Positions 33,265-47,108 of a stretch of 64,000 nucleotides of DNA are shown here, piece by piece (within the stretch, counting starts at the first letter, position 1; each line of letters begins with the position of its first letter). Source of the stretch: Acetobacterium malicum subsp. dehalogenans DSM 11527 (GTDB lineage Bacteria; Bacillota; Clostridia; Eubacteriales; Eubacteriaceae); contig NZ_KI421448.1 of the NCBI RefSeq assembly GCF_000472665.1, forward strand, positions 135,836 to 199,835. Reading direction: 5' to 3'. Below the pieces are notes generated by a model, which had not been told where the DNA came from, ran no database searches, and worked only from the letters and a program-made list of their open reading frames with translations. Position numbers and translations under genes: made by a program.

Positions 33265-33316
33265 CGACGTTTTTTCTCCCTTCGTTTCTCATCTAATATC
33301 ATAAAGATTTAATCTT

Positions 33317-33360
33317 AAAACACCCGTGAATTTTGCCTCAGCAAGATTCACGGGTGTTTT
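33317..33360 (-). terminator. Strong bidirectional terminator
   Basis: AAAACACCCGTGAAT and ATTCACGGGTGTTTT form a 15-bp perfect stem around a short loop; T-runs flank both sides. It ends the metallophosphoesterase transcript. Confidence 0.88.
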
Positions 33361-33374
33361 GATTTTTCAGCTCC

Positions 33375-35042
33375 TTAAATCCGAATTGCCTGAGCCTCCG
33401 TCCATTGGGTAATGGTCTGATCCGGTGAATATTGATACAGATTAACGGTTTCAATGGCCGCACCAGCTTTGGGAGGGGTGATCACCACAAAGGTTCGGGT
33501 GGGGTAACCCTGGGCATTGTCAATCCAGGTTCCACTGTTGGCGTAAATGGTTTTTTGACTGTCGCGATTGGTCATGGCAATGACATCCGCCACATGGGTA
33601 TGACCAAAAATAACAATCCGTTTGGAAACATCCAGATCAAAAAACTGCGTTTGCGCCTGACAATCGGTAAAAGCCGGCACTGCCGCCCGGGTGATCGCTT
33701 CGCTGACGGGGATTTTAACGGTTACGCCGTTGATGGTCTGACGCTCCTCCCAGGTATCCTGGATATTGTGGTATAGGGTCGCACTGATGAGACCGGTTTC
33801 TTTGTCTTGTTGAGGGATACAGTCATTAATGGAATAATTCTCGGTAAATCCATCAATATTGGTTTTTAAAACCTTGTCATCAAAGCTTTCCTTGACCGGC
33901 AATACCGATAAAATGGCTTTCCAGGTTTGATAATATAAATAGGCGTTAAATTGACTGGGGTCTTCTTTGTTGGGTATCATTTCCGGGAAGACATTATCCG
34001 ACTGGGGGTGTCCCTCAATCACGCAGGTGGTGGCAATGCGGGTAAAGAAATAACCCGGTGGTAAAATAGTGGTCTCATCGTTGGTGATCGCCCGGTTTGA
34101 AATCGGATCGGGGGTACAGAAAAAATTGTACTTGTGGCCATGCTCAATGACAATTTCTGAATTGGGACCAGTGACATAGGTGCCCAGCCCCTGCAGTTCT
34201 GCTCTGGCCTGACTGATGCCCGGAAAAATCCGGGCCACATCGGCCTCAGTCAGCAATAAATCATGGTTCCCGGGAACATAGGTTACCTTGATTTCCCCAG
34301 CTTTGATAATGGCATTAAAGCCGTCGATGATGGCCTGATTATTGGCCGCCACCTGATCAAAGAACGCTGCTTTGGAATCCGGCATCTGATAATCCATCGG
34401 CAAAAACCATTCATCCAGCAAGTCGCCACCGATGACCAGTTCTTTGACATTGGGTGACTTTTTGACCTGAGCCAGGAAGTCAACCAGTGCCTGTTTGTTT
34501 TTTTCCAGCTCGGCAAAAGCCGAATCGACGCCCAGATGAAAATCGCTGGCTACAATAATTTGGGTTCGTTCTTCGTTCAATTCCGGGTTGCCAGATAAAT
34601 CAAAGTCAATATTCGTGGCAAAATAGCCGACATAGTCACACCCCAGCGATGCTTTGTTTTTTGAGGATAAGGTGCTTTTGATGATAAGTTTGTATTCTTG
34701 CCCCTGGGCAAATCGGGTGATGTCCTTGTTATTGATACGGATGGATTTTGGATCATTGAGATCAATTTTTACCGCACAGGCTTCTTCGACCGGATCTCCG
34801 GCGCTATCAATGCGATACAGCTTCACCGCCTCAGTGATGGTAGCCGGCTCCAGCTCCTCACTGAATTTAAGCACAATAGTTTGAATCTTGTCATTTACTG
34901 GCGGGTTATCCAGCTCATCAGACATTAATACATTAGACTCGATGGTCATCTCTTTTGAGCCATCCTGGATTGATGTATAGGCTCCCAGAATCGAACTGGC
35001 CATCTTTAAACAGGCAAGGCTGAAATATTTCGTGGTTTTCAT
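33375..35042 (-). CDS. Exported metallophosphoesterase with N-terminal Ig-like domain
   Basis: A 555-aa protein from ATG 35042; an ATG two codons upstream lies too close to GAGGAG. The N-terminus (MKTTKYFSLACLKMASSILG) is weakly hydrophobic and may be a signal. Residues about 45-150 look like a bacterial Ig-like (Big_5) domain (IQTIVLKFSEELEPATITEA). The calcineurin-type phosphoesterase follows, with its metal motifs: DFHLG near 167, GGDLLDEW near 205, GNHD near 258, EHGHKY near 300 and GHTH near 490. Substrate unknown; possibly a cell-surface or extracellular phosphodiester. It has its own terminator and is probably separate from the operon upstream. Confidence 0.85.
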   Translation of the reverse strand: MKTTKYFSLACLKMASSILGAYTSIQDGSKEMTIESNVLMSDELDNPPVNDKIQTIVLKFSEELEPATITEAVKLYRIDSAGDPVEEACAVKIDLNDPKSIRINNKDITRFAQGQEYKLIIKSTLSSKNKASLGCDYVGYFATNIDFDLSGNPELNEERTQIIVASDFHLGVDSAFAELEKNKQALVDFLAQVKKSPNVKELVIGGDLLDEWFLPMDYQMPDSKAAFFDQVAANNQAIIDGFNAIIKAGEIKVTYVPGNHDLLLTEADVARIFPGISQARAELQGLGTYVTGPNSEIVIEHGHKYNFFCTPDPISNRAITNDETTILPPGYFFTRIATTCVIEGHPQSDNVFPEMIPNKEDPSQFNAYLYYQTWKAILSVLPVKESFDDKVLKTNIDGFTENYSINDCIPQQDKETGLISATLYHNIQDTWEERQTINGVTVKIPVSEAITRAAVPAFTDCQAQTQFFDLDVSKRIVIFGHTHVADVIAMTNRDSQKTIYANSGTWIDNAQGYPTRTFVVITPPKAGAAIETVNLYQYSPDQTITQWTEAQAIRI

Positions 35043-35106
35043 AATCATAACTCCTCGATAATTTATTTTAGGACGCGATCTTCGACAATACTGCCAATCT
35101 TATCAT

Positions 35107-35150
35107 TTTAAAAAACAGTCAGAACTAACCCAGGGGTGCACTGACTGTTT
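35107..35150 (-). terminator. Terminator of the GH3/ATP-grasp operon
   Basis: On the minus strand AAACAGTCAG pairs with CTGACTGTTT across an 18-nt loop, followed by TTTTAAAA. It lies 16 bp after the last ATP-grasp gene. Confidence 0.85.
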
Positions 35151-35165
35151 CCAGTTATTTCCACA

Positions 35166-36083
35166 TTATTTTTGCTTTCGTTTCTGAGCCTCTGCCATAA
35201 TATTTTTTAGCGTCAGCAACAGCGGATTGCTCTGGCTGTTACTGAGGGCATCCTTGGAATAGGTCAATCCGGTCATCGAATTGGCTTCGCAGATATAATA
35301 AGTGTCGTTTTCGCCAAACAGAAAATCGATACTGCCAAAGTAGATATCCAGCACCGCGGCAGCTTGTTCGGCAATTTCCACCACCGCATCCGGTGGCGTA
35401 ATAAACTGTAGATCGCCGCCCTGAGAAAGGTTGGATTTAAAGTTGTCGCCATTGTCGCGGATATAAGCGGTTGAAAATTTTCCACCGCTTAGCATAATCC
35501 GCATATCCCGGCCTTTCGAGGCGGCGATACACTCCTGAATCAGGATATGGTCATCAAAATTCATGGCGGCATAAATATCCAGAATATTCTCCAGTTCTTT
35601 TTCGGTTTTGATCTGGACCACGCCTTTGCCCTTACTGCCGTGCATCACCTTGACCACACAGGGCAGCCCCAGTTCACTGGCAATAAAAGAAGGTTTTGTT
35701 TTTGGGGTCATCAGCACCGTTTTAGGGAATAAAAAGCCCTGCTTGGCGGCTCCCAGTTTTTGAAAGGTCAACAGTTTGTCGGCAGTGTTGTTCAGACTTT
35801 CAGAACTATTGACACAAAGCACATCCAGGGATTCCAGCATTTTGACAACGGCCTTGCTATGATAGTTGTTACCGCCGAAAAAGGCTGACAGCGAAAAGTC
35901 CGGCACCTCTACCGCTTCACCACCGATAAAACAATGCTGGCTGTCGCCCGGTTCACACATCACCTGGACCTCACTGACGTCCACGGTTCGGATGTTGACA
36001 CCCATCTTTTCAATCAGCGCAATAATCGTCTGGATCGACGGTTCTGCCAGAGTTTCATGATTAACTAATAGCCAGCCTAGCAT
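35166..36083 (-). CDS. RimK-like ATP-grasp ligase (second of two)
   Basis: A 305-aa ATP-grasp enzyme, expected to form an amide or peptide bond through an acyl-phosphate. The N-terminal pre-ATP-grasp domain starts MLGWLLVNHETLAEPSI. The ATP-binding lid VVKVMHGSKGKGVVQI is near residue 145, the DMRIMLSGGKF arginine motif near 192, and the metal site SIDFLFGENDTYYICEANSM near 250-270 (E-x-N). It is about the length of RimK/LysX. It overlaps the upstream paralogue by 7 bp and is the last gene of a seven-gene operon. Substrate unknown. Confidence 0.88.
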   Translation of the reverse strand: MLGWLLVNHETLAEPSIQTIIALIEKMGVNIRTVDVSEVQVMCEPGDSQHCFIGGEAVEVPDFSLSAFFGGNNYHSKAVVKMLESLDVLCVNSSESLNNTADKLLTFQKLGAAKQGFLFPKTVLMTPKTKPSFIASELGLPCVVKVMHGSKGKGVVQIKTEKELENILDIYAAMNFDDHILIQECIAASKGRDMRIMLSGGKFSTAYIRDNGDNFKSNLSQGGDLQFITPPDAVVEIAEQAAAVLDIYFGSIDFLFGENDTYYICEANSMTGLTYSKDALSNSQSNPLLLTLKNIMAEAQKRKQK

Positions 36084-37000
36084 GTTTGGCCACCTTCTCT
36101 CAATCGTTTTTTCCAGAGCGGTTCCGGTCGGTCCTTGACCTGTTTCATTAAATCCGCAAACATCACTTTGATGTCAAAGGCCACTCCCGGCATCGCATTG
36201 GCTTCACATAAATAGAAGGTATCATTTTCACCAAACAGAAAATCGACGCTGCCCATATTGATTTTAAGCAGCTGGGCCACCTTTTCAGCGGCCTCAATCA
36301 CCGATGCCGGTGGGGTATATTCGACGATATGACCGCCCTTGGCCAGATTGGAACGAAAGCTCTTTTCATTCTGACGGATAAATGATTTGACAAACTTTCC
36401 ATTGGCCAGAATCATCCGCAGATCGCGACCAGAAGATGCTTTGATACACTCCTGAATAATAATTTCATCGCCGATTTCACTGGCGGTACTCATACTGATC
36501 AGGTTATCCAGTTCTTTTTCATTATTAACCAGCACCACCCCCTTACCTTTGCTACCATGCATGACCTTCATCACCACGGGGTAGTCAAACAGTTTGCTGA
36601 CAAAGGATGCTTCGGTATACTCGGTGACGAGCAGGGTTTTAGGAAAGCAAACCGCTTCAATCGACTCGGCCACCAACTGAAAGGTCAACAGCTTGTCGTC
36701 CACATTTTTGATGGCATCATATGAATTGATGCACAACACGCCCAATGATTCCAGCATTCGCAGCGCCGCCGAGGTATGGTAGTTTTTTTCCGTAAAGAAG
36801 GCTGCCACCACATAATCCGGCACCTCCATAATTTCGTCGCCCACATAAAGTTTTCCGTCAAAGTCATGGTCACAGACCACATGGATCTGCAGCGGATCAA
36901 CCACCATCAGATCGACATGGAGCTCTTCCACCACCTTCATAATTTTCACAATCGAAGGATCTTCCATTTTTCCGGGATTTCTTAATAACCAACCTTTCAT
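36077..37000 (-). CDS. RimK-like ATP-grasp ligase (first of two)
   Basis: A 307-aa paralogue of the next gene. ATG 37000 (MKGWLLRNPGKMEDPSI) follows AGGAGG; an upstream frame start lies within the ABC gene's end. Motifs: VVMKVMHGSKGKGVVLV near residue 145, DLRMILANGKF near 192, SVDFLFGENDTFYLCEANAM near 252-272. A lysine-rich C-terminus (WKKRLREGGQTC) is extra. Two such ligases in tandem suggest two successive couplings, or a heteromeric ligase; neither can be distinguished here. Confidence 0.88.
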   Translation of the reverse strand: MKGWLLRNPGKMEDPSIVKIMKVVEELHVDLMVVDPLQIHVVCDHDFDGKLYVGDEIMEVPDYVVAAFFTEKNYHTSAALRMLESLGVLCINSYDAIKNVDDKLLTFQLVAESIEAVCFPKTLLVTEYTEASFVSKLFDYPVVMKVMHGSKGKGVVLVNNEKELDNLISMSTASEIGDEIIIQECIKASSGRDLRMILANGKFVKSFIRQNEKSFRSNLAKGGHIVEYTPPASVIEAAEKVAQLLKINMGSVDFLFGENDTFYLCEANAMPGVAFDIKVMFADLMKQVKDRPEPLWKKRLREGGQTC

Positions 37001-37016
37001 TTTAACCTCCTGAATT

Positions 37017-38789
37017 TTAATTATCTGATGCACTTAAATATAAATTGGCGTATAAACCACCCAGCTTCATCAGCTCGGCGTGACTGCCGACCTCTTTAAT
37101 GTCACCTTCCATCATAAAAATAATCTTATCGGCATTTTTAATGGTAAAGAGCCGATGGGCAATAATAAAGGTGGTTCGTCCTTTCATCATCGCCTCCATC
37201 GCCTGGGTGATCAAAATTTCGGTTCGGGTATCCACCGACGAGGTTGCCTCATCCAGTATTAATACCTTGGGATCGGCAATAATCGTTCGGGCAATGGCCA
37301 GAAGCTGACATTCCCCCTCGGACAGGGTGGTAAAATCGCCACCGATCCGGGTCTCATAGCCCAGGGGCAGTTTTTTGATAAATTCGTCGCACTGGGCTTT
37401 TTTGGCCGCCGCGATAACATCTTCCCGGGTTGCCCCGCTTTTGCCATAAGCAATATTTTCTTCAATGGTGCCATCAAAAAGCCAGGTATCCTGAAGCACC
37501 ATGCCAAAGGCAGATCTCAAGTTGTGTCGGGTCAGCTCTTTGACATCCAAGCCTTCCAGTAAGATATTGCCGTGATTGATTTCATAAAAGCGCATCAGCA
37601 GATTGACCAGGGTTGTCTTGCCAGCGCCACTGGGTCCTACCACTGCCAGGATTTCTCCCGGTTCGGCTTTTAGGGACACATCATGGAATAAGGTCCGTTC
37701 GGGAATATAGCCGAACTCAACGTTATTAAATTCAATGCTGCCTTTAGCATTGGCAACATCCAGAACTGCGGTACCGACATCTGCCTGTTCCTCTTCCCGA
37801 TCCAGAAATTCAAAAATTCGTTCCGCTGCTGCCGCACCGGACTGGATAAAGTTCAAATTATTGGAAATCAGGGCGGTGGGGCTGGCAATATTATTGGCAT
37901 AGATCAGAAATGCCTGAATTCCCCCGATGGTCAGGGTCCCGGTAATGACAAAAATCCCCCCCACCACACAGATGCCGATATAGGCCAGGTTATTGATCAA
38001 CTTCATCAGCGGTGCACTGAGTCCCGAATAAAACCGCGAACTTAGATAAGATTTAAAAAACCGCTGATTGATATCATCAAATTTTTGTGCTGATTTTGCT
38101 TCATGATTAAAAGACTTCACAATTAAGTGGCCATCATAGACTTCTTCAATCAGTCCATTTAAGGCCCCCAGTTCCTGTTGCTGTCTTCTGAACAGCACCT
38201 GGGTCTTTTTGGTAATCAGTTTCATCACGAAATAAGACAACGGAATGGCAATAAAGAAGATCAGGCTCAATTGAACATTTAACACCAGCATCATCACAAT
38301 AATCCCGATAATACTGGTGGCCTGAACCAGGATCTGGGTCAGATTGCTTTCCAGCGCTCCGGAAAGGGTGGTGGCATCATTGGTGACCCGGGAAAGGAGA
38401 TCGCCGCGTTCACTCTGATCCAACACATTCAGCGTCAATTTATTCAGTTTTTCCTGAATATCTGCCCGCAGTCGCTTAATCGCCAGTTGCGACAGATAGG
38501 TGGTGCGCATGGTGGCGTAATAGGCAAACCCGGCGCTTAAGATATAAAGCGCAGCCAGGATAATCAGTTGCTGTCCAATATAGGAAATATCAATATCCGT
38601 ATTTTTTGAAATACTGTCGGCAATACTATCGGTCACATCCTTGGTCACAACCGGCGCAAAAATCGCAAAAATGGTACTGGCAATCAAAGCCAGGGCCACA
38701 AAAAAGATAACATGTTTTTTATCCTTTAAATAATGACTCAGCCGCTTACCGATGGCACCAAAGCTGTATTTTCTTTTTTTTGCTTTCAC
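37017..38789 (-). CDS. ABC exporter half-transporter (canonical ATPase subunit)
   Basis: A 590-aa fusion of six membrane helices (residues about 30-310) and an ATPase domain. Walker A is GPSGAGKTT near 383 and Walker B KVLILDEATSSVD near 512 has the catalytic Glu. The signature is LSEGECQLLAIAR, departing from LSGGQ, and IAHRL holds the switch His. With the neighbouring subunit it should form a heterodimeric exporter: this Walker site pairs with the canonical signature of the partner, while this degenerate signature pairs with the partner's weak site. It overlaps the partner gene by 4 bp. It likely exports the product of the GH3/ATP-grasp enzymes. Confidence 0.92.
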   Translation of the reverse strand: MKAKKRKYSFGAIGKRLSHYLKDKKHVIFFVALALIASTIFAIFAPVVTKDVTDSIADSISKNTDIDISYIGQQLIILAALYILSAGFAYYATMRTTYLSQLAIKRLRADIQEKLNKLTLNVLDQSERGDLLSRVTNDATTLSGALESNLTQILVQATSIIGIIVMMLVLNVQLSLIFFIAIPLSYFVMKLITKKTQVLFRRQQQELGALNGLIEEVYDGHLIVKSFNHEAKSAQKFDDINQRFFKSYLSSRFYSGLSAPLMKLINNLAYIGICVVGGIFVITGTLTIGGIQAFLIYANNIASPTALISNNLNFIQSGAAAAERIFEFLDREEEQADVGTAVLDVANAKGSIEFNNVEFGYIPERTLFHDVSLKAEPGEILAVVGPSGAGKTTLVNLLMRFYEINHGNILLEGLDVKELTRHNLRSAFGMVLQDTWLFDGTIEENIAYGKSGATREDVIAAAKKAQCDEFIKKLPLGYETRIGGDFTTLSEGECQLLAIARTIIADPKVLILDEATSSVDTRTEILITQAMEAMMKGRTTFIIAHRLFTIKNADKIIFMMEGDIKEVGSHAELMKLGGLYANLYLSASDN

Positions 38790-40525
38790 AGTGATTCCTC
38801 CTTCCCATCGCTATAGGATTGGGATTTCAGAATTTCCTGATAAACCCGGCAATCTTCGATCAATTCCTCGTGTTTACCCTGGCCGACAATGGCACCATTG
38901 TCGAGCACTAGAATGCGATCGGCATGTTTAATGGTGCTGATCCGCTGGGCGACAATTAACACCGTTTTATCCCCAAATTTTTCGCGAATGGCTTTTCGAA
39001 CCAGCGAGTCAGTTTTAAAATCCAAGGCTGAAAAGCAATCGTCAAAGATCGTGATCGGCGCTTTTTTGACCGCCGCTCGAGCGATCGAAAGACGCTGACG
39101 CTGGCCCCCAGAAAGATCCTTACCGCCCTGGGAAATGGTGCTACTAAGTTGCCCTTCCCGTTCATTGACAAAGTCAAGAGCCTGGGCAATCGCCAGGGCT
39201 TCAGTTACTTCTGCTTCAGTCGCCTGATCATTCCCGACCCGGATATTTTCCAGTACCGTGCCGCTGAATAACACCGATTCCTGGGGCACGTAGGCGATGA
39301 TACTTCTTAAATCATGCTGGGTGCAATCCCGGATGTCAATGCCATCAATGACAACGGCACCAGCACTAACCTCATAAAGTCGCAAAATCAAATTGACCAG
39401 GGTTGTTTTCCCGGAGCCGGTGGCACCAACAATGGCGGTGATTTTTCCCGGCTCGGCAACAAAATTCAAGCGGTCCAGAACATTGATTTCGGCACCAGTA
39501 TAACCAAAAGAGACATCTTTAAACTCAATTCGTCCGGTAATGTTTTCCAGAGTAGCAGGGTTTTCCTGATCCTGAATCGAGAATTCACAGTCCAGCACCT
39601 CTTTAACCCGGGCAGCCGAAACCGCCGCCTGGGGATAGGCCATTAATAAGGCCGAAACCAGGCCCAGGGCTGACATAAACATCAATACATATTGGATAAA
39701 GACCATCAGACCGCCCAGGCTGACGATTTGCTGTTGAACTTCTTCGGCCCCTAACCACAGAATAATCACCATCGTCAGATTCATCATCAACTGCATCAAC
39801 GGCGCAAAAAAAGCTACTGCATAGTTTGCTTTGACGGCGGCTTGCATGCCTTCCTGGTTGGCCTTGCCAAATTTCTCGGTTTCATAATCCTGCCGGTTAA
39901 AAGCCCGGATCGCCCGTACCCCAGTGAGTTTTTCTTTCATCAGCAGGTTCAGCCGATCGACTTTTTGCTGCATCACCTTAAATAAGGGCATACTTCTGGC
40001 AGTGGTCAAGCCGATGATAATCGTCGTAATCAGAAAAGACCCCAACAACAACAACGTCAGGGTGACGTTTTCGCGAAACGCCATCACCAAAGCGCCAACT
40101 CCCGTGATCGGAACCAGTAGCAGTGACCGTAAGCCATTGATGACCACAATCTGCATCTGAGTGGCATCGGTGGTGGAGCGGGTCAGTAGGGTAGCTGCCC
40201 CAAATTGATTAAAATCAGTCTGAGAAAAATCTTTTACTTTGTCAAAGACATCGGCCCGGATCCGACTGGTAAAGGAAGCGGTGACATAGGCCGAATAGTA
40301 ACTCGAAGCTACCATACAGACTGCCGCCACTAGCGAAACCCCCAGCATCATCGCGCCACTTTTTAGGATATAGGGGGTATCTCCCTGGGCGACCCCATTT
40401 TCAATAATATCCCCCATCATCGTGGGCAGATAAAGCTGGGCTGCTGCCTGGCTGAGGACAAATACAAATACCAGAATCATCTGGAGCCGGTAATCTTTTA
40501 AGTACCGGATAAGTAAACTGACCAT
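38786..40525 (-). CDS. ABC exporter half-transporter (degenerate ATPase subunit)
   Basis: A 579-aa half-transporter with six N-terminal membrane helices and a C-terminal ATPase domain. Walker A GATGSGKTT is near residue 367 and the signature LSGGQRQRLSIAR near 477. Walker B PITIFDDCFSALD near 495 has Asp where the catalytic Glu is expected, and the switch region reads VAQRIST (Gln for His). This is the typical non-catalytic site partner of heterodimeric exporters. It starts 3 bp after the GH3 gene stop. Confidence 0.92.
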   Translation of the reverse strand: MVSLLIRYLKDYRLQMILVFVFVLSQAAAQLYLPTMMGDIIENGVAQGDTPYILKSGAMMLGVSLVAAVCMVASSYYSAYVTASFTSRIRADVFDKVKDFSQTDFNQFGAATLLTRSTTDATQMQIVVINGLRSLLLVPITGVGALVMAFRENVTLTLLLLGSFLITTIIIGLTTARSMPLFKVMQQKVDRLNLLMKEKLTGVRAIRAFNRQDYETEKFGKANQEGMQAAVKANYAVAFFAPLMQLMMNLTMVIILWLGAEEVQQQIVSLGGLMVFIQYVLMFMSALGLVSALLMAYPQAAVSAARVKEVLDCEFSIQDQENPATLENITGRIEFKDVSFGYTGAEINVLDRLNFVAEPGKITAIVGATGSGKTTLVNLILRLYEVSAGAVVIDGIDIRDCTQHDLRSIIAYVPQESVLFSGTVLENIRVGNDQATEAEVTEALAIAQALDFVNEREGQLSSTISQGGKDLSGGQRQRLSIARAAVKKAPITIFDDCFSALDFKTDSLVRKAIREKFGDKTVLIVAQRISTIKHADRILVLDNGAIVGQGKHEELIEDCRVYQEILKSQSYSDGKEESL

Positions 40526-40528
40526 CGG

Positions 40529-42205
40529 CTACTCCTTATCCACTAAGGCAAAGAAAAAGTTCTCTTTGACCAGCGTGTCAATCACCCGGACCGGTTTTAG
40601 CTGATTCGCGGAAATCCCCCGCATGATCATCAGATCACGATAGAGGGCATAGGTTTCTTCCTGAACAAAGGAAATCTCCGAGGGACTCAAAACGCCACTT
40701 TTTACCTTGGAGCCAATCGATGGATTAGCCTTGCCCAACTTTTCTTCCATAATTAGGCGATACGCATCATACCGTTCTTTGGGCAACGGTTTTTCTAATT
40801 CAATAAAGATCACATAACGACCCGGCGATACAGCCACATCGGCATAGACCGAATAATCCACCAGCTCGCAGTCGGTGGCTTTGGCAAATTCCTTAACCGC
40901 CCAGGAAATGCATTCTTCGGTGGTCTTTTCACCAGCGATGCTAACCATCTGATTGAGCCGGTAGACAAATTTGATCTTGGGACAGTTTTTATACCAACCG
41001 ACCACCCGCACCACATCTTTGATCCGATAGCGGTAAAAGCCCGAGGTGTTGGTTAACACAATTTCATAATCCTTGCCGGTTTCCAGCTGTTCCATGGTCA
41101 GGGTTTCTTCCGAGTCTTCCTGATCAGCCGGAATAAACTCATAAAAGGCCGAGTCCGGAATCAGCACGAATTCCTGGGTTTCCATTTCATTGCAGATCGC
41201 CATGATTGACTCAGATGCTGCATAAATACTGAAGTAAATGGGAATGTCCCCCAGATAATGACGCATTTTATCAGTATAAACTGAAAACCCCCCACTGCCG
41301 ATGGCATGAACAAAAGCCAGCTCGGGCCAGATTCGGGGAATGATCGGCGTCTCAAAACCTTTTTCAAATTCTTTTCTTAACTCTGCCGCCCGTTTGGGGT
41401 TCGGCTTAATCTGGGTCAGCAATTGGGCTTTAACGTTATCGGGTATTTTTATATCCGGATCGATGGTGCCTTTTTCGATATCATTCACAAGCAATTCCCA
41501 GTTTGTTTCCATGTATTTCATCAAGTCAGAAATACCGGTCATAAAGGCTGACACAATATAGGACAGATTTCGATCCATCAGCGCAAAGCGAAGGTGTGCA
41601 TACTTGGTATCCATTATTTCGGTCGGAAAAACAATTTCCTTGGGCGAGGTGAACATCAGAAACAAAAGGTTTTTGATACTATAAACACCCCGCCCGGAAA
41701 TAGACCCGGCAAACAAACCATTGGGCAGCGTTTCAAATTTGACTTCCATCAGATTTAGGCCGCGACCCCGTTTCCACTTTTTCCCCAGTGCCCGAGCAAT
41801 GATGGCAAAACTGAACTGGGTGGCATACTCCCGATAAAGTTTAACGGTTTGCTCCGAAACCGGGATCTTCTTGGGATTATCCACACTTCCCGAGGTTAGC
41901 GCATAATGAACAATGGGATCCTTGGTCAGCAGATCTGTTTCACCAGCTATCATCCGTTCGATATAGGGGGCATAGTCATCATAAATCGAAAAGGGAACCA
42001 TTTTTTTATAATCTTCAATGGTGGTAATCTGATCAAAATGGTAACGCTTTCCATATTCAGTATCGGCATTTTTTTTCAGCATGTCCAGCATCAGCTGTTT
42101 ATTGATTTCTGGGGCATTTTCTGTTAAATAATCAAAATTTTCTATTTTTTTGTAACCCTTCTTAATATTAAGGGAATAGACCATCTGGGGGATTAATTTT
42201 ATCAT
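40529..42205 (-). CDS. GH3-family acyl-acid amido synthetase homologue (second of two)
   Basis: A 558-aa adenylate-forming enzyme of the GH3 (auxin-responsive/JAR1) family. In plants these join acyl acids to amino acids through an acyl-adenylate. ATG 42205 overlaps the stop of the upstream paralogue (ATGA), behind AAGGAAGG. Motifs: phosphate loop LTSGSVDNPKKIP near 104, YFSIYAASES near 327, and GFYRYRIKDVVRVVGWY near 405, the GH3 third motif with Asp contacting ribose. The C-terminal lid follows (YVIFIELEKPLPKERYD). Bacterial members are scattered and mostly uncharacterised. Substrate unknown. Confidence 0.9.
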   Translation of the reverse strand: MIKLIPQMVYSLNIKKGYKKIENFDYLTENAPEINKQLMLDMLKKNADTEYGKRYHFDQITTIEDYKKMVPFSIYDDYAPYIERMIAGETDLLTKDPIVHYALTSGSVDNPKKIPVSEQTVKLYREYATQFSFAIIARALGKKWKRGRGLNLMEVKFETLPNGLFAGSISGRGVYSIKNLLFLMFTSPKEIVFPTEIMDTKYAHLRFALMDRNLSYIVSAFMTGISDLMKYMETNWELLVNDIEKGTIDPDIKIPDNVKAQLLTQIKPNPKRAAELRKEFEKGFETPIIPRIWPELAFVHAIGSGGFSVYTDKMRHYLGDIPIYFSIYAASESIMAICNEMETQEFVLIPDSAFYEFIPADQEDSEETLTMEQLETGKDYEIVLTNTSGFYRYRIKDVVRVVGWYKNCPKIKFVYRLNQMVSIAGEKTTEECISWAVKEFAKATDCELVDYSVYADVAVSPGRYVIFIELEKPLPKERYDAYRLIMEEKLGKANPSIGSKVKSGVLSPSEISFVQEETYALYRDLMIMRGISANQLKPVRVIDTLVKENFFFALVDKE

Positions 42206-43923
42206 TTTTCGCCTTCCTTTGCCCAATGAATAATATTGCTTTTGTCCGGGTATTCTTTTACAATGGTCGGGAGCTTCGTCTGGTTAACATTTTTCCCCGG
42301 CATAATGGCTCGGGTGAACAGTGAGTCCCGGTAGCCGTCCTTCATCACCAGCACCTCCGGTGCTGCCAATATATTATCATTGCGTAATTTTTGATAATTC
42401 CGATTATCAACCATCAGATTTTTGTCCAGTGCCGTTTTGAACAACTCACTATCAAGTGTTGCTGAACAAGGTTCCAGTATAAATACCAGTTTTCGCTGAT
42501 TGGCATCCAATAAAATCTGGAAAAAGCGAATTTCCTGGTTTTGTTGGGCGGACACCCTTTGAATGGATCCTTCAATCTCATAGATCATCAACTTCAAATT
42601 CTCGATGTCAAGGCGTTCAGATTCTTTACACACAAAAACGACTCTGGGAACCTGATTATTGATATCTGAGACATAGACAATATCCTTCATATTATAGCGA
42701 TACAGTCCGGAATAGGAGGTGATAATCAGCTCGTAATAGCCTCCTTTTATTAATTCATGGGCCAGAACCGTTTCATTGTTTTTAGCTCCCACTGGCAAAA
42801 ATTCAAAAAAATAACCAAAAAGAGCGAGCAATCCGGCTGGATCCTGGGCTTTATCTGGTATATTGAACTTTCCTTCACTGGCACCGTAGCCCCATTCTAA
42901 AAACTTCACCGTCTGAGGTAGATTTTTTTTAATATCAGCGACAATTTTTGCCGCACTGGCAGACATCCAACAGGACACAACCGAAAACTCCGGCCAGATC
43001 TCCGCCACATCGAGGCTTTTATTTTTCGCCAGAATTATTTTTAATTCTGCTGCCCGATCCGGGTTTGGCTGTAATTTTGACACCAGTTTTTCCCGTAGCA
43101 CTTCATTTAAACTGATCTTTTTAGATATCTCACCGGTGCTGATATCTTCCAGCAAATCGGCCGCAGAGGCATTCATTTTTTTCAGCAAGATATTAAAGTG
43201 GGCAATATTACTGCAGACCACCCCAACCAGATTTTTTTCTTCCAATGCGTAACGAATCGTTAAATAATCGGTTGCTTCGTTACTCAGGTCTTTAGCCATC
43301 ATCATTTCTGGTGGCAGCACCATTTTTTTCAGCATCTCGACCGGCATATCTTTAGCCGCCTGACCAGAAGCTGAGCCAATCGGGATGCCTCCTTCTGTCT
43401 TTCCATATTCTGAAGGATTGGCAATCGCCAGCACTTTTTTTCCCGGAACCATAACTTCCGGCGCCAGCATTAACAACAGGATCGCCCGAATCTGAGAAAC
43501 CAGACCCTTGACCAGTTCGCCGTTTCTACTTTCCGGCAGCAGCTTGGGAACCCCGGTGGAGCCGCTGGTGGCAATAAAACTGGCGGCCGGTCCGTCAAAA
43601 AAGATATCCGCAGTCCCGCCTTTTAATCGGTCAATTTCTGCCTCCACCTGGGAATAGTCTGAAAAAGGCACCTTTTTTCTAAACGCATCGACAGTATCTA
43701 TCTCAGCAAAACCAAATTTCTTACCAAACTCAGTATTTTGAGCAGATTTTAAAATATCCTGAAGCACACGCAGTTGTGTGACCTCAGGAGTATTTTCTGT
43801 TATGTAAAAGCTTTTGATTAATTTTTCATTGGGCATGTCCTTTAATAATTCAGGAATACTCTTGCCATCGTTGCCCGCAAAGATGGCACTGGAAAGCTCC
43901 TCCGGGATTCTATCTTTTTCCAT
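42202..43923 (-). CDS. GH3-family acyl-acid amido synthetase homologue (first of two)
   Basis: A 573-aa paralogue of the following gene. Phosphate loop IATSGSTGVPKLLPES near residue 113, EWGYGASEGKFNIP near 345, and SGLYRYNMKDIVYVSD near 415. The C-terminal lid is present (RKLVFILEPCSATLD). The two copies are clearly diverged, which argues for different substrates or steps rather than recent duplication. It follows the STAS gene by 10 bp. Confidence 0.9.
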   Translation of the reverse strand: MEKDRIPEELSSAIFAGNDGKSIPELLKDMPNEKLIKSFYITENTPEVTQLRVLQDILKSAQNTEFGKKFGFAEIDTVDAFRKKVPFSDYSQVEAEIDRLKGGTADIFFDGPAASFIATSGSTGVPKLLPESRNGELVKGLVSQIRAILLLMLAPEVMVPGKKVLAIANPSEYGKTEGGIPIGSASGQAAKDMPVEMLKKMVLPPEMMMAKDLSNEATDYLTIRYALEEKNLVGVVCSNIAHFNILLKKMNASAADLLEDISTGEISKKISLNEVLREKLVSKLQPNPDRAAELKIILAKNKSLDVAEIWPEFSVVSCWMSASAAKIVADIKKNLPQTVKFLEWGYGASEGKFNIPDKAQDPAGLLALFGYFFEFLPVGAKNNETVLAHELIKGGYYELIITSYSGLYRYNMKDIVYVSDINNQVPRVVFVCKESERLDIENLKLMIYEIEGSIQRVSAQQNQEIRFFQILLDANQRKLVFILEPCSATLDSELFKTALDKNLMVDNRNYQKLRNDNILAAPEVLVMKDGYRDSLFTRAIMPGKNVNQTKLPTIVKEYPDKSNIIHWAKEGEK

Positions 43924-43933
43924 TTTATCACCC

Positions 43934-44236
43934 TTATTCGATGGTTAAAATATCTGAAAACCCTGTCATATCAAACACTTCCTGGATCTCTGGTTTGACA
44001 TTTTTAATCACCAGACTGCCATTGAGTGCTTTGGATTTCTTTTGAATCAGGAGTAAAACTCTTAATCCGGCACTGCTGACAAAATCCAGTCTATCAAAAT
44101 CCAGGATCATGTTAAATCCTTCTTTGCTGTAATATGCTTCCATTTCTTTTTGAAATTCGGGAGAGGTGTTGGTGTCCATCCGACCTTCCAGTTCAACCAC
44201 AAATATTTCGCCGTCTTGTTTTACATCAATTTTCAT
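43934..44236 (-). CDS. STAS-domain anti-sigma factor antagonist
   Basis: A 100-aa SpoIIAA/RsbV-like protein: VKQDGEIFVVELEGRMDTNT, MILDFDRLDFVSSAGLRVLL (phosphorylatable Ser in SSAG near residue 56), and VFDMTGFSDIL. Such proteins bind anti-sigma kinases in partner switching. No cognate kinase or sigma factor lies nearby. As first gene of the GH3/ABC/ATP-grasp operon it may regulate or allosterically organise it; the role is unproven. Confidence 0.9.
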   Translation of the reverse strand: MKIDVKQDGEIFVVELEGRMDTNTSPEFQKEMEAYYSKEGFNMILDFDRLDFVSSAGLRVLLLIQKKSKALNGSLVIKNVKPEIQEVFDMTGFSDILTIE

Positions 44237-44762: not shown

Positions 44763-47108
44763 ATGAAAAAGAACTCTATTATTTCCATTATTATTATCCT
44801 ACTTATCCTCCTTACCGCCATTTTGTTTGTTCGCGGCTGCAGTCAAGAAGGCAGTCAAATGAAAAATTATACCGTGGCGGGTACCTACACCGAAACAGCA
44901 ACCTATCAAAGCGGGGAGATCCGGGTTTCCGGTGTCAACATTGAAAATGCTACCTTTACCGGTAACCTGACCGTTGTTGACGCGGTTGTCGACGGCGATA
45001 TCCGGTTAACCAACTCCGCTGTTCAAGGAGAATTACTGGTAAAAGGAGGTGGCACCATTTATCTTGATGGCGGTTCCTACCAGAATATTACCCTTGAGAA
45101 GCAAGGAGTGAAAATTGTTTTGCTTGGCGAAGCAACGGTTGAAACCCTCACCACCAGAGTCGCGGCCAACATCGTGGTTGACAATCAAAGTAAGGTTAAA
45201 ACCCTGAATGTCGACAAAGCGGCCAGCCGAACGGCCATCACGACCCAGGAAAATGGCACCATTGAAAACATCCAATCCCGTGGAGTCAGCGACATCGTCC
45301 TGAACACCCCGGCCAAACTGATTGGCTTTGGTACCAATGCCGGTGGCTCAACCCTTGTGACCAATGCAGTGGTTGAAAAAATTGTGGCTGAATCTAAAAT
45401 AGCTCTCACTCTTAACGCCAATGTTGGATCCGTCTTGTTAACTGCGACTGGCGAAGGAACCAGCATCATCCTCGCCAACAATGCCGTCATCGCATCTCTG
45501 GCTACTGAAACCCGGGTCGAAATTACCGGTGAAGGCAGTGTCACCAGCGCTACCACCAACGATGTCTTGAACATTACCGGTACCATTACTCCGGATGTGA
45601 TTTATATTACCACCAAACCAGTTGTCAGTGATCCCAATGGCGGTTTGATGGTCTCGACCAATACCAGCCGACCAACTGAAATCAATGCTGGGAGCAGCAG
45701 CTCCTGGTATTCAGAATCCAGCAGTTCCGGTTCAATTATTAATTCAAAATATGATGTGCCACCACTTAGCCCAGTGGATCCTGTTAATCCGCCATCACCA
45801 CCATCACCGCCAACCCCACCTAGCCCACCGATTAATATTTCGGTAGAGGCGATTCAGGTAACACCGGTTGAAGCGGATGTGATTATGGGCAATACCTTAA
45901 AACTAAACACCGTTATTTTCCCGGCCAATGCCACCAATCAAACGATCATCTGGGAATCTTCCAATAACAATGTTGCCACGGTTACCAATGGGGTAGTCAC
46001 ACCAGTTGCCAATGGCGAGACAACAATCACCGCCCGGACTCAGGACGGCAATAAAACGGATACCAGCAAAATTACGGTTAAAACAAATATTGGTGCGGTC
46101 ACCATGATCAATACCATCAACGCCGTTAATAACGGCATTTCCGAAACGATTGCTTACGACAGCAGCTACGCCTTGCCAGTTGTGGTGATTGTTCAAGGTC
46201 ATGGCAGTGAAATCTTCCCCTGTTCCGTTAATTGGACCCCCAATACGGTCGATACCAAAAAGGTCGGTGAAACAACCTATACTGGAACCCTGGTGATGCC
46301 GGCTGGCTATGTCAACCTGAATAATATCCAGGCCACCATTGCTCTCACCGTTTTGGCCCAACCGGTGATAACCGCCAGTTCCGAGCTGTCATCCCAGCGT
46401 CTTTATTTAAATGAAGATCCGGCTCCCGTCTTTGTAGAGGCCAATGTAACTGAGGATAAAACCTTAACCTATCAATGGTCTTTCCGGACTGGTGATGTGG
46501 AAACTCCCCTACCGGAGGTAACCGGCCCAATTTATGACCCACCAGTCTCAACAACCCCGGGTACCGTCTATTATAGCTGCTTGATCTCTTCGGAAAATGC
46601 TGAGCCCGTAACCGTGTTAGCCGGTACTGTTGTAACCAGCGCTGAACCGGTTGTTTTACCGGAATCATCCAATCCCGTTGCCCCTACTGATGAAGTCAGC
46701 CCGGCTGATCCCATCACTTCAACCGATTTGTCGGAAATGCCAACCATCAATGCACAACCGACCAGCATTTCACAACTGACCGGGGTGGCTCTGGCTACCA
46801 GTTTGGCTCAGGCCACCCGGACTGCCCAAGCTGCTCTTGGTACCCCTAAAGCGGATGCTACCACAGCTTCTTTCACAGTGGATGCCAGTATCAGTGACGG
46901 CGGTGAACTCTCCTACCAGTGGTTCGAAAGCACCGATGCTGTTAATGCCGATGGCAAGCCAATTGACGGCGCCACCGATAAAACCTTTGAAGCCGATGTT
47001 TCTGGTCCCGCTGGTACCACCTACTACTATGTCGAAATCACCAATACCAAAGCGGGCTGCCTGCCGGTAACCGCCGTCAGTGTCCCGGTTTCGCTCACCG
47101 TCGTCTAA
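44763..47108 (+). CDS. Membrane-anchored surface protein with Ig-like domains
   Basis: A 781-aa protein from ATG 44763 behind GGGAAGGA; a longer frame from 44454 is not supported. The N-terminus KKNSIISIIIILLILLTAIL is a membrane anchor ending FVRGCSQ. The Cys could be lipidated, although Arg at -2 is unusual for a lipobox. Residues about 35-300 have repeated short beta motifs (GSYQNITLE, ATVETL, GTSIILANNAV) like polymer-forming or beta-helix surface proteins. A linker PPSPPSPPTPPSPP follows near 355. After it come a Big_2 Ig-like domain (VIFPANATNQTIIWESSNNN, VATVTNGVVTPVANGETTIT) and two further beta-sandwich modules. No sortase motif is present at the C-terminus. Confidence 0.85.
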   Translation: MKKNSIISIIIILLILLTAILFVRGCSQEGSQMKNYTVAGTYTETATYQSGEIRVSGVNIENATFTGNLTVVDAVVDGDIRLTNSAVQGELLVKGGGTIYLDGGSYQNITLEKQGVKIVLLGEATVETLTTRVAANIVVDNQSKVKTLNVDKAASRTAITTQENGTIENIQSRGVSDIVLNTPAKLIGFGTNAGGSTLVTNAVVEKIVAESKIALTLNANVGSVLLTATGEGTSIILANNAVIASLATETRVEITGEGSVTSATTNDVLNITGTITPDVIYITTKPVVSDPNGGLMVSTNTSRPTEINAGSSSSWYSESSSSGSIINSKYDVPPLSPVDPVNPPSPPSPPTPPSPPINISVEAIQVTPVEADVIMGNTLKLNTVIFPANATNQTIIWESSNNNVATVTNGVVTPVANGETTITARTQDGNKTDTSKITVKTNIGAVTMINTINAVNNGISETIAYDSSYALPVVVIVQGHGSEIFPCSVNWTPNTVDTKKVGETTYTGTLVMPAGYVNLNNIQATIALTVLAQPVITASSELSSQRLYLNEDPAPVFVEANVTEDKTLTYQWSFRTGDVETPLPEVTGPIYDPPVSTTPGTVYYSCLISSENAEPVTVLAGTVVTSAEPVVLPESSNPVAPTDEVSPADPITSTDLSEMPTINAQPTSISQLTGVALATSLAQATRTAQAALGTPKADATTASFTVDASISDGGELSYQWFESTDAVNADGKPIDGATDKTFEADVSGPAGTTYYYVEITNTKAGCLPVTAVSVPVSLTVV

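Follow-up and report, generated by a model that had tools for sequence, protein, structure and literature searches.

What does a bacterial operon make when it joins two GH3-family amido synthetases, two ATP-grasp ligases and both halves of an exporter? The question is raised by seven minus-strand genes at positions 35166-44236 of a 64,000-nucleotide stretch of the Acetobacterium malicum subsp. dehalogenans DSM 11527 genome (contig NZ_KI421448.1, positions 135,836 to 199,835; hereafter, the window). With moderate confidence, we read the operon as a compact biosynthesis-export unit for an amide-linked small molecule, an N-acyl amino acid or a short acyl-peptide made mostly without a nonribosomal peptide synthetase (NRPS); the substrates, the product, and the direction of transport are what we infer from the encoded protein families. 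This is the best reading because the co-occurrence of the genes is conserved and the GH3 motifs are intact. The operon, in the order of its genes, and its terminator are as follows.

43934..44236, minus strand: STAS, a STAS-domain protein of the anti-sigma-antagonist type, operon gene 1 (PF01740, 4.3e-19; TIGR00377)
42202..43923, minus strand: GH3A, a GH3-family acyl-acid amido synthetase of a fast-evolving type (PF03321, 5.9e-59)
40529..42205, minus strand: GH3B, a GH3-family acyl-acid amido synthetase (PF03321, 7.6e-88; JAR1, 1e-64)
38786..40525, minus strand: ABC1, the TM287-like half of a heterodimeric ATP-binding cassette (ABC) exporter (PF00664 and PF00005)
37017..38789, minus strand: ABC2, the TM288-like partner half (PF00664 and PF00005)
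36077..37000, minus strand: AG1, a RimK-like ATP-grasp ligase (PF08443, 2.9e-26)
35166..36083, minus strand: AG2, a RimK-like ATP-grasp ligase and AG1 paralogue (PF08443, 8.5e-24; TIGR00768)
35111..35152, minus strand: intrinsic terminator after AG2 (hairpin with a T-run, -18.2 kcal/mol, z -2.99)

A preliminary description of this DNA had reported seven closely packed genes of these families, arranged as diverged pairs and closed by a single terminator, and each of these points holds. All open reading frames are as stated, and the distances from STAS to AG2 are +10, -4, +3, -4, +16, and -7 bp, that is, gaps of 3 to 16 bp or overlaps of 4 to 7 bp; start codons were picked by eye from the purine-rich site upstream, and the gap figures depend on them. 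Pfam confirms STAS, both GH3 proteins, both ABC halves, and both RimK-like ligases. Identity is 25% between GH3A and GH3B and 45-47% between AG1 and AG2, while ABC1 and ABC2 correspond to opposite chains of the same heterodimers. The hairpin and T-run that end the operon were not listed by a simple consensus terminator scan, and an Rfam search of the window returned no RNA element except one tRNA. Against the orthologues at locus L031, nonsynonymous divergence (dN) was 0.04-0.21, with GH3A changing fastest, and synonymous divergence (dS) was above 1, saturated, or not computable; by these rates, the operon genes are under purifying selection.

Conservation of the arrangement was assessed in 19 Acetobacterium genomes, comprising the window's own genome (4.05 Mb in 76 contigs) and 18 relatives, 16 of which were examined for gene order. 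All seven genes were present in the same order in 15 of the 19 (the window's own genome and 14 of the 16 relatives), and an order kept across the genus in this way is not due to chance. The gene set that had been proposed to co-occur is thus conserved in the genus, and the functional set recurs in one distant genus of Clostridia, described below. In genome G014, six genes were found and STAS was not, even in the three frames of the gap. G003 is fragmentary, with short contigs carrying STAS, GH3A, GH3B, ABC1, and the end of ABC2. The GH3 pair was not found in the 2.2-Mb genome G006, where other genes occupy the usual operon site between a Big2 gene and a sensor-like gene (locus L187, compared with L027); this small-genome Acetobacterium offers a natural operon-free comparison. 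No GH3 match was obtained in G018 (81% complete), in which the contig ends beside the Big2 gene. A profile scan of genome contigs with a two-row GH3 alignment recovered seven Acetobacterium-type loci, together with two GH3 loci (L049 and L050) without the cluster. Seven records hold near copies, five of them labelled Acetobacterium (sp., wieringae, and woodii) and two labelled Firmicutes or Bacillota bacterium.

Both GH3 proteins score above the Pfam cut-off for the N-terminal, middle, and C-terminal GH3 domains (PF03321, PF23571, and PF23572). GH3B is full-length and near plant JAR1 (1e-64) and auxin-conjugating enzymes, and among solved structures its nearest relatives are plant enzymes that conjugate jasmonate, auxin, and benzoate. 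GH3A has diverged further (2e-23, versus 1e-64 for GH3B). Its predicted model, with a mean predicted local distance difference test score (pLDDT) of 75.6, fits GH3.15 best (Z 25.6, root-mean-square deviation [rmsd] 4.6, 511 residues aligned), and it matches plant GH3 structures at Z 17.7-25.6 and the adenylating enzymes ClxA, NatL2, and AjiA1 at Z 15.3-15.9. The three nucleotide motifs and the C-terminal NQTK of GH3A were each found in 17 of 18 genus frames, the misses being contig-end fragments of G003. In GH3B, motifs I and II and the lysine region were present in all 17 orthologue frames; motif III was present in 15, and in the remaining two it carries one substitution (GFYRYRIQD). We take the NQxK lysine of both proteins to be catalytic. 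The nucleotide motifs and the lysine region, whose loss the preliminary description had named as a reason to abandon its proposal, are therefore retained in the genus orthologues; the catalytic motifs of GH3A and GH3B are intact and, judged from these residues, the enzymes look active.

The kinship of GH3B with plant enzymes that conjugate jasmonate, auxin, and benzoate also suits another purpose, in which GH3 would inactivate aromatic or other acids as in plants and the ABC pump, itself related to multidrug exporters, would remove the conjugates. However, detoxification does not need two further peptide ligases or the NRPS of the related cluster described below, most of the genus has retained the full set of seven genes, and the STAS gene suggests programmed control. 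We consider such conjugation and export of unwanted acids improbable.

ABC1 and ABC2 each carry an ABC_membrane and an ABC_tran domain, so that two unlike fused halves, each with a transmembrane and a nucleotide-binding domain, are encoded together. The solved relatives ranking first for ABC1 are 8wcw_A, 9iqe_A, 9kwi_A, and 3qf4_A, and those for ABC2 are 8wcw_B, 9kwi_B, and 3qf4_B. The Walker B motif of ABC1 ends in DD, with aspartate replacing the catalytic glutamate, in 17 of 17 sequences, and its Walker A motif is GATGSGK[TS]; in ABC2, an altered signature, LSEGECQ, occurs together with LILDE in 16 of 16. Such asymmetry of Walker B and signature motifs marks one degenerate ATP site, as in heterodimeric exporters of the TM287/288 type. 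By these residues, ABC1 and ABC2 would form one TM287/288-type heterodimer with one degenerate ATP site.

Of the ATP-grasp proteins, AG2 scores 149.1 bits and AG1 140.8 bits against the TIGR00768 RimK subfamily (cut-off, 143.4 bits). The AG1 model (mean pLDDT, 88) is nearest to RimK 7qys (Z 29.2, rmsd 2.1, 280 residues aligned), with RimK entries at Z 28-29, ArgX and LysX at Z 22-28, and the first proteins of other kinds at Z 22. K103, K145, R195, R209, N218, D253, and E266 of AG1 are invariant across 17 aligned sequences, and the ATP-grasp residues are kept in the genus orthologues of both ligases. For two patterns, misses occurred in 2 and 3 of 16 AG1 sequences and in 1 and 2 of 16 AG2 sequences, in each case through single substitutions beside the kept residues. 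RimK, LysX, and ArgX extend their substrates at carboxylates, and their acceptors include protein C termini. AG1 and AG2 might accordingly be thought to tail a protein or cell-wall acceptor as RimK does, with the GH3 and ABC genes serving a separate purpose; the fold of AG1, closest to RimK, LysX, and ArgX, agrees with this, as do RimK-like pairs elsewhere in Clostridia that lack GH3 and ABC genes. Yet the operon shows no evident acceptor protein, another genus has a different ATP-grasp pair beside GH3 and ABC genes, and in a third arrangement an NRPS replaces the ATP-grasps; we judge tailing very improbable.

How the enzymes of an acyl-peptide pathway might work together can be proposed from their families. 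A GH3 enzyme that joins an acid to an amino acid leaves an amide with a free carboxylate, and RimK-type ligases activate such a carboxylate and add an amino acid through its amine; the two steps therefore fit in sequence, and this is the order of reactions that we infer. GH3A and GH3B would each activate a free carboxylic acid by adenylation and pass it on to an amine, supplied by an amino acid or a similar acceptor, so that an N-acyl amino acid results whose carboxylate is free. This carboxylate would then be converted to an acyl phosphate by AG1 and AG2 and extended by at least one more amino acid, and the ABC1/ABC2 heterodimer would export the product or flip it to the outer leaflet. The preliminary description had likewise proposed an amide-linked acyl-amino-acid or short-peptide product for export or envelope insertion. 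That proposal came through the co-occurrence and motif comparisons as the best reading, with substrate, product, and export kept at the level of prediction.

The same enzymes could instead serve a membrane aminolipid route, in which GH3 would form an N-acyl amino acid (a lyso-aminolipid), AG1 and AG2 would assemble a head group of two or three amino acids, and the ABC proteins would flip a lipid that stays in the envelope. Consistent with this, the only NCBIfam family matched by either GH3 protein at an E value of 0.01 or below is OlsH, an enzyme that uses free fatty acids, ATP, and an amino acid, and the highest NCBIfam score of the ABC halves is to MsbA (421.0 and 391.6 bits). However, the scores of the GH3 proteins against the OlsH model NF052613 (103.5 and 82.2 bits) fall far below its equivalog cut-off of 620, those of the ABC halves lie below the MsbA equivalog cut-off of 602, none of the seven genes encodes an acyltransferase, and the NRPS of the sister cluster better suits a peptide natural product. 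We regard the aminolipid route as rather unlikely.

STAS, the first gene, matches PF01740 (4.3e-19) and scores 80.5 bits against TIGR00377 (cut-off, 53.45), which is the antagonist type. Its SSAGLR motif was found in 16 of 16 orthologue frames, and the serine of this motif is presumably phosphorylated. No kinase or phosphatase is encoded among the seven operon proteins, a statement that covers the operon, as the genome was not searched for them; control through STAS would thus act in trans. A regulatory role is supported by two loci in other families of Clostridia at which GH3 adjoins partner-switch genes. In one family, L115 (8711-14041) carries a STAS gene, GH3, a MATE pump, and a SpoIIE-type phosphatase; in another, L116 (6832-10544) has GH3 beside a fusion of SpoIIE and HATPase_c_2. 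The probable role of STAS is to adjust expression or activity through partner switching, the kinase or phosphatase being encoded elsewhere.

Beyond Acetobacterium, a general presence of the GH3 part in the family was rejected, since no GH3B match was found in any of 21 same-family genomes of other genera. Two of 48 same-order genomes of other genera (G062 and G063) had a GH3B match, and the set was not seen nearby on their short contigs. In 391 sampled Clostridia genomes, in searches that scored at most three to five candidates per genome (three for GH3A), a GH3B-like gene was present in 20, of which 17 lie outside Acetobacterium. An orthologue-level GH3A outside the genus appeared once in the scan of 388 sampled Clostridia, in G082 (346 bits; next, 168), and a second GH3A orthologue occurs in G443; both genomes belong to one Clostridia genus, g42 of family f21.

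The G082 cluster (L098) encodes, on one strand, GH3B, GH3A, a 988-residue NRPS with adenylation, carrier, and condensation domains (A-T-C), ABC1, and ABC2. In G443, a short contig (L124) carries an NRPS, GH3A, and part of GH3B, and on another (L125) the remainder of a GH3B adjoins genes for a MATE pump and a condensation-adenylation protein; these two contigs would appear to join. Among 21 chosen genomes, no ABC2 match outside Acetobacterium scores higher than that of G082 (591 bits; next, 548). Trees were built from the top-scoring ABC pairs of those 21 genomes and from the clusters, with L172, L178, L179, and L180 omitted from the single-gene trees only; the ABC1, ABC2, and concatenated trees place the G082 pair with the Acetobacterium pair (Shimodaira-Hasegawa-like approximate likelihood ratio test, 100, 100, and 99). 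In the GH3 tree, the seven GH3A rows form one clade (100). Read most simply, GH3A, GH3B, and the ABC pair moved together as one unit, while the extension module differs, being twin RimK-like ligases in Acetobacterium and an NRPS in G082. A PP-binding domain, absent by Pfam from the seven operon proteins, is present in the G082 cluster, whose NRPS would fit the same place in the proposed pathway as AG1 and AG2.

A second type of cluster in g42 consists of ABC, ABC, a 446-residue ATP-grasp (PF02655), a 290-residue RimK-like ATP-grasp, GH3, and GH3. It is complete in G082 and G116, and in G330 it runs up to one GH3 at the contig end; in G442 and G444, a single GH3 is followed by another gene, the ATP-grasp side reaches the contig end, and the ABC genes are off the contig. 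Its ABC pair has no close kinship with the Acetobacterium pair in the concatenated tree, its RimK-like ligase is 28-33% identical to AG1, neither of its ATP-grasps is close to AG1 or AG2, and its two GH3 genes arose by duplication of a GH3B-type gene within the g42 lineage, according to the GH3 tree. GH3, an ABC pair, and two ATP-grasps have thus been brought together from mostly different sources, an argument that they are functionally linked. These findings bear on the suggestion that the genes are merely co-located and share no pathway. In its favor, most GH3 loci examined in other Clostridia lie outside such clusters; against it stand the overlapping genes, the one terminator, the genus-wide order, and the reappearance of the set, built from parts of other ancestry, in a second genus. 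We hold mere co-location to be scarcely probable.

Several observations nevertheless weigh against the acyl-peptide reading or narrow its base. Of the 30 GH3 loci examined in other genera, some of which share a genome, four (L098-L101) combine an unbroken tandem ABC pair with a ligase lying within 6 kb on the same strand; all four are in g42. Two more, on short contigs and again in g42, have a ligase only (L124 and L126). L103 (g42) is a decayed remnant with ABC1, L123 has a RimK fragment below the score limit, L106 has another ABC pair three unrelated genes away from GH3, and L115 has STAS by GH3; the remaining loci of the 30 showed nothing of the set at these limits. With most of the 30 loci lacking the cluster, the system looks restricted, and the evidence from co-occurrence rests on two genera. 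GH3-rich or ATP-grasp-rich genomes may hide a further candidate behind the number scored per genome. The ABC1 of G082 (446 bits) ranks below 12 other matches outside the operon, genus paralogues included, and L098 was flagged as long-branched in the ABC trees, the GH3 tree also giving long-branch warnings. Within Acetobacterium, ABC2 is split in G001, and in G008 and G003 the frame is broken in the GH3B start region. The seven genes include no carrier protein, acyl-CoA ligase, or fatty-acid gene, and AG1, at 140.8 bits, lies 2.6 below the TIGR00768 cut-off of 143.4. Tandem diverged RimK-like pairs also occur without GH3 or ABC genes in several Clostridia families, at L183 (5388-7462), L184 (5751-7492), L186 (6582-8323), and probably L185.

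We further propose, tentatively and as less probable than the acyl-peptide reading itself, that bacteria have a modular class of biosynthesis in which amides are assembled by GH3 enzymes. In it, a GH3 core with a heterodimeric exporter would be joined by one of several interchangeable peptide-extension modules (an A-T-C NRPS, or twin ATP-grasps from either of two lineages), control would be by partner switching, and the products would be an undescribed family of exported acyl-peptides in anaerobic Clostridia. If this is true, such acyl-peptides are products that standard genome mining overlooks. The operon itself is an example, kept across most of a genus of partly cultured acetogens, of GH3 with peptide ligases and a pump. 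It gives a direct way to a possibly new class of metabolite or lipid, and further systems could be sought by the rule that GH3 adjoins a heterodimeric exporter and ATP-grasp or NRPS genes.

Two neighboring genes were considered as core members and set aside. The phosphoesterase gene at 33375-35048 lies beyond the terminator and adjoins the operon in only part of the genus; between it and a DNA glycosylase gene, a 20-pair hairpin with a T-run (33315-33362) is a likely terminator. Upstream, the divergent gene at 44763-47108 encodes a lipoprotein-like protein with an Ig-like (Big_2) domain and is usually found by pyruvate carboxylase; all 19 genus genomes have it, even G006, in which the operon is missing from the usual place.

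GH3 genes were also seen in other company. A very distant GH3-like protein occurs in seven genus genomes, in three of them above the Pfam cut-off, and lies by a GGDEF-HD signalling protein where viewed, including in G006. The loci with this pairing are the following.

L040, 7924-12128: very distant GH3-like gene with GGDEF-HD gene
L041, 7729-11911: very distant GH3-like gene with GGDEF-HD gene
L121, 1380-5557: very distant GH3-like gene with GGDEF-HD gene

In two Clostridia families, GH3 is followed by two radical SAM proteins with B12-binding-type N termini (L117, 8371-12687, called by Pfam; L120, 5889-10514, called by eye only), and a Citrobacter plasmid (L190, 8794-16743) has a GH3 gene accompanied by four radical SAM genes and one for a PAP2 phosphatase. 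Judged from these neighborhoods, GH3-radical SAM may be a separate GH3 cassette shared across phyla. A scan of viral contigs with the GH3A alignment found no relative. Plasmid records gave 11 distant GH3B matches, all below 60% identity. None of three plasmid GH3 neighborhoods viewed contained the set, although the Streptomyces one has a STAS gene about 4.5 kb off, beyond four genes. On a linear Streptomyces plasmid, L189 (8914-10584) has GH3 near a type I polyketide synthase, a P450, an aminotransferase, and a thrS copy.

Finally, the operon was compared with known systems. Searches of the open-licence literature turned up no description of GH3 combined with ATP-grasp and ABC genes, which agrees, for papers of that kind, with the earlier suggestion of an undescribed system. 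Some uses of the name lead elsewhere: in the passages of PMC6998099 in which it appears, GH3 denotes glycoside hydrolase family 3. RubP3, a 567-residue protein named GH3 in the passages of PMC8487521 on the Streptomyces rubiginone cluster, resembles our proteins in belonging to a published bacterial biosynthetic cluster and differs in that the cluster is one for an angucycline polyketide; those passages assign RubP3 no function. ClxA, NatL2, and AjiA1, solved PaaK-like proteins, are adenylating enzymes of the same superfamily as GH3A; however, they are not GH3 and match GH3A lower than the plant GH3 structures do. ABC1 and ABC2 resemble TM287/288 exporters, as chains A and B, respectively, of 8wcw, 9kwi, and 3qf4 with one degenerate ATP site, but sit in an amide-ligase operon. 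AG1 shares its fold and ATP-grasp residues with RimK, LysX, and ArgX, and AG2 scores above the RimK subfamily cut-off; in contrast to those systems, the operon has no gene for S6, LysW, or a similar acceptor, and AG1 falls 2.6 bits under that cut-off.

Two systems come nearer. OlsH of Singulisphaera acidiphila, reported in 2025, is a GH3-like lyso-ornithine lipid synthetase that uses ATP to link free fatty acids to an amino acid, and S115 of its TSGTT motif was shown to be essential, according to the passages on this enzyme in PMC12493201. It resembles GH3A and GH3B as a bacterial GH3 enzyme, and the TSG serine of both proteins corresponds to S115, so that the essential serine of motif I is shared. 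It differs in that the OlsH operon, as given in those passages, comprises three genes, for one GH3, the methyltransferase OlsG, and the acyltransferase OlsI, and in the scores of GH3A and GH3B, 82-104 bits against a cut-off of 620. In closthioamide biosynthesis in Ruminiclostridium cellulolyticum, an NRPS-independent amide backbone is assembled by the ATP-grasp CtaD and the adenylating CtaI of the acetyl-CoA synthetase family, with two peptidyl carrier proteins, and CtaC adds sulfur, according to the passages on the cluster in PMC6772006. The likeness lies in clostridial NRPS-independent amide assembly by an ATP-grasp and an adenylating enzyme (PMC6772006); the differences are the carrier proteins, none of which is found among the seven operon proteins, and GH3, which is not named in the passages on that cluster. 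Thus, OlsH is the closest enzyme with a shown function among those found, and, among clostridial systems that assemble amides with an ATP-grasp and no NRPS, closthioamide, as those passages present it, comes closest.

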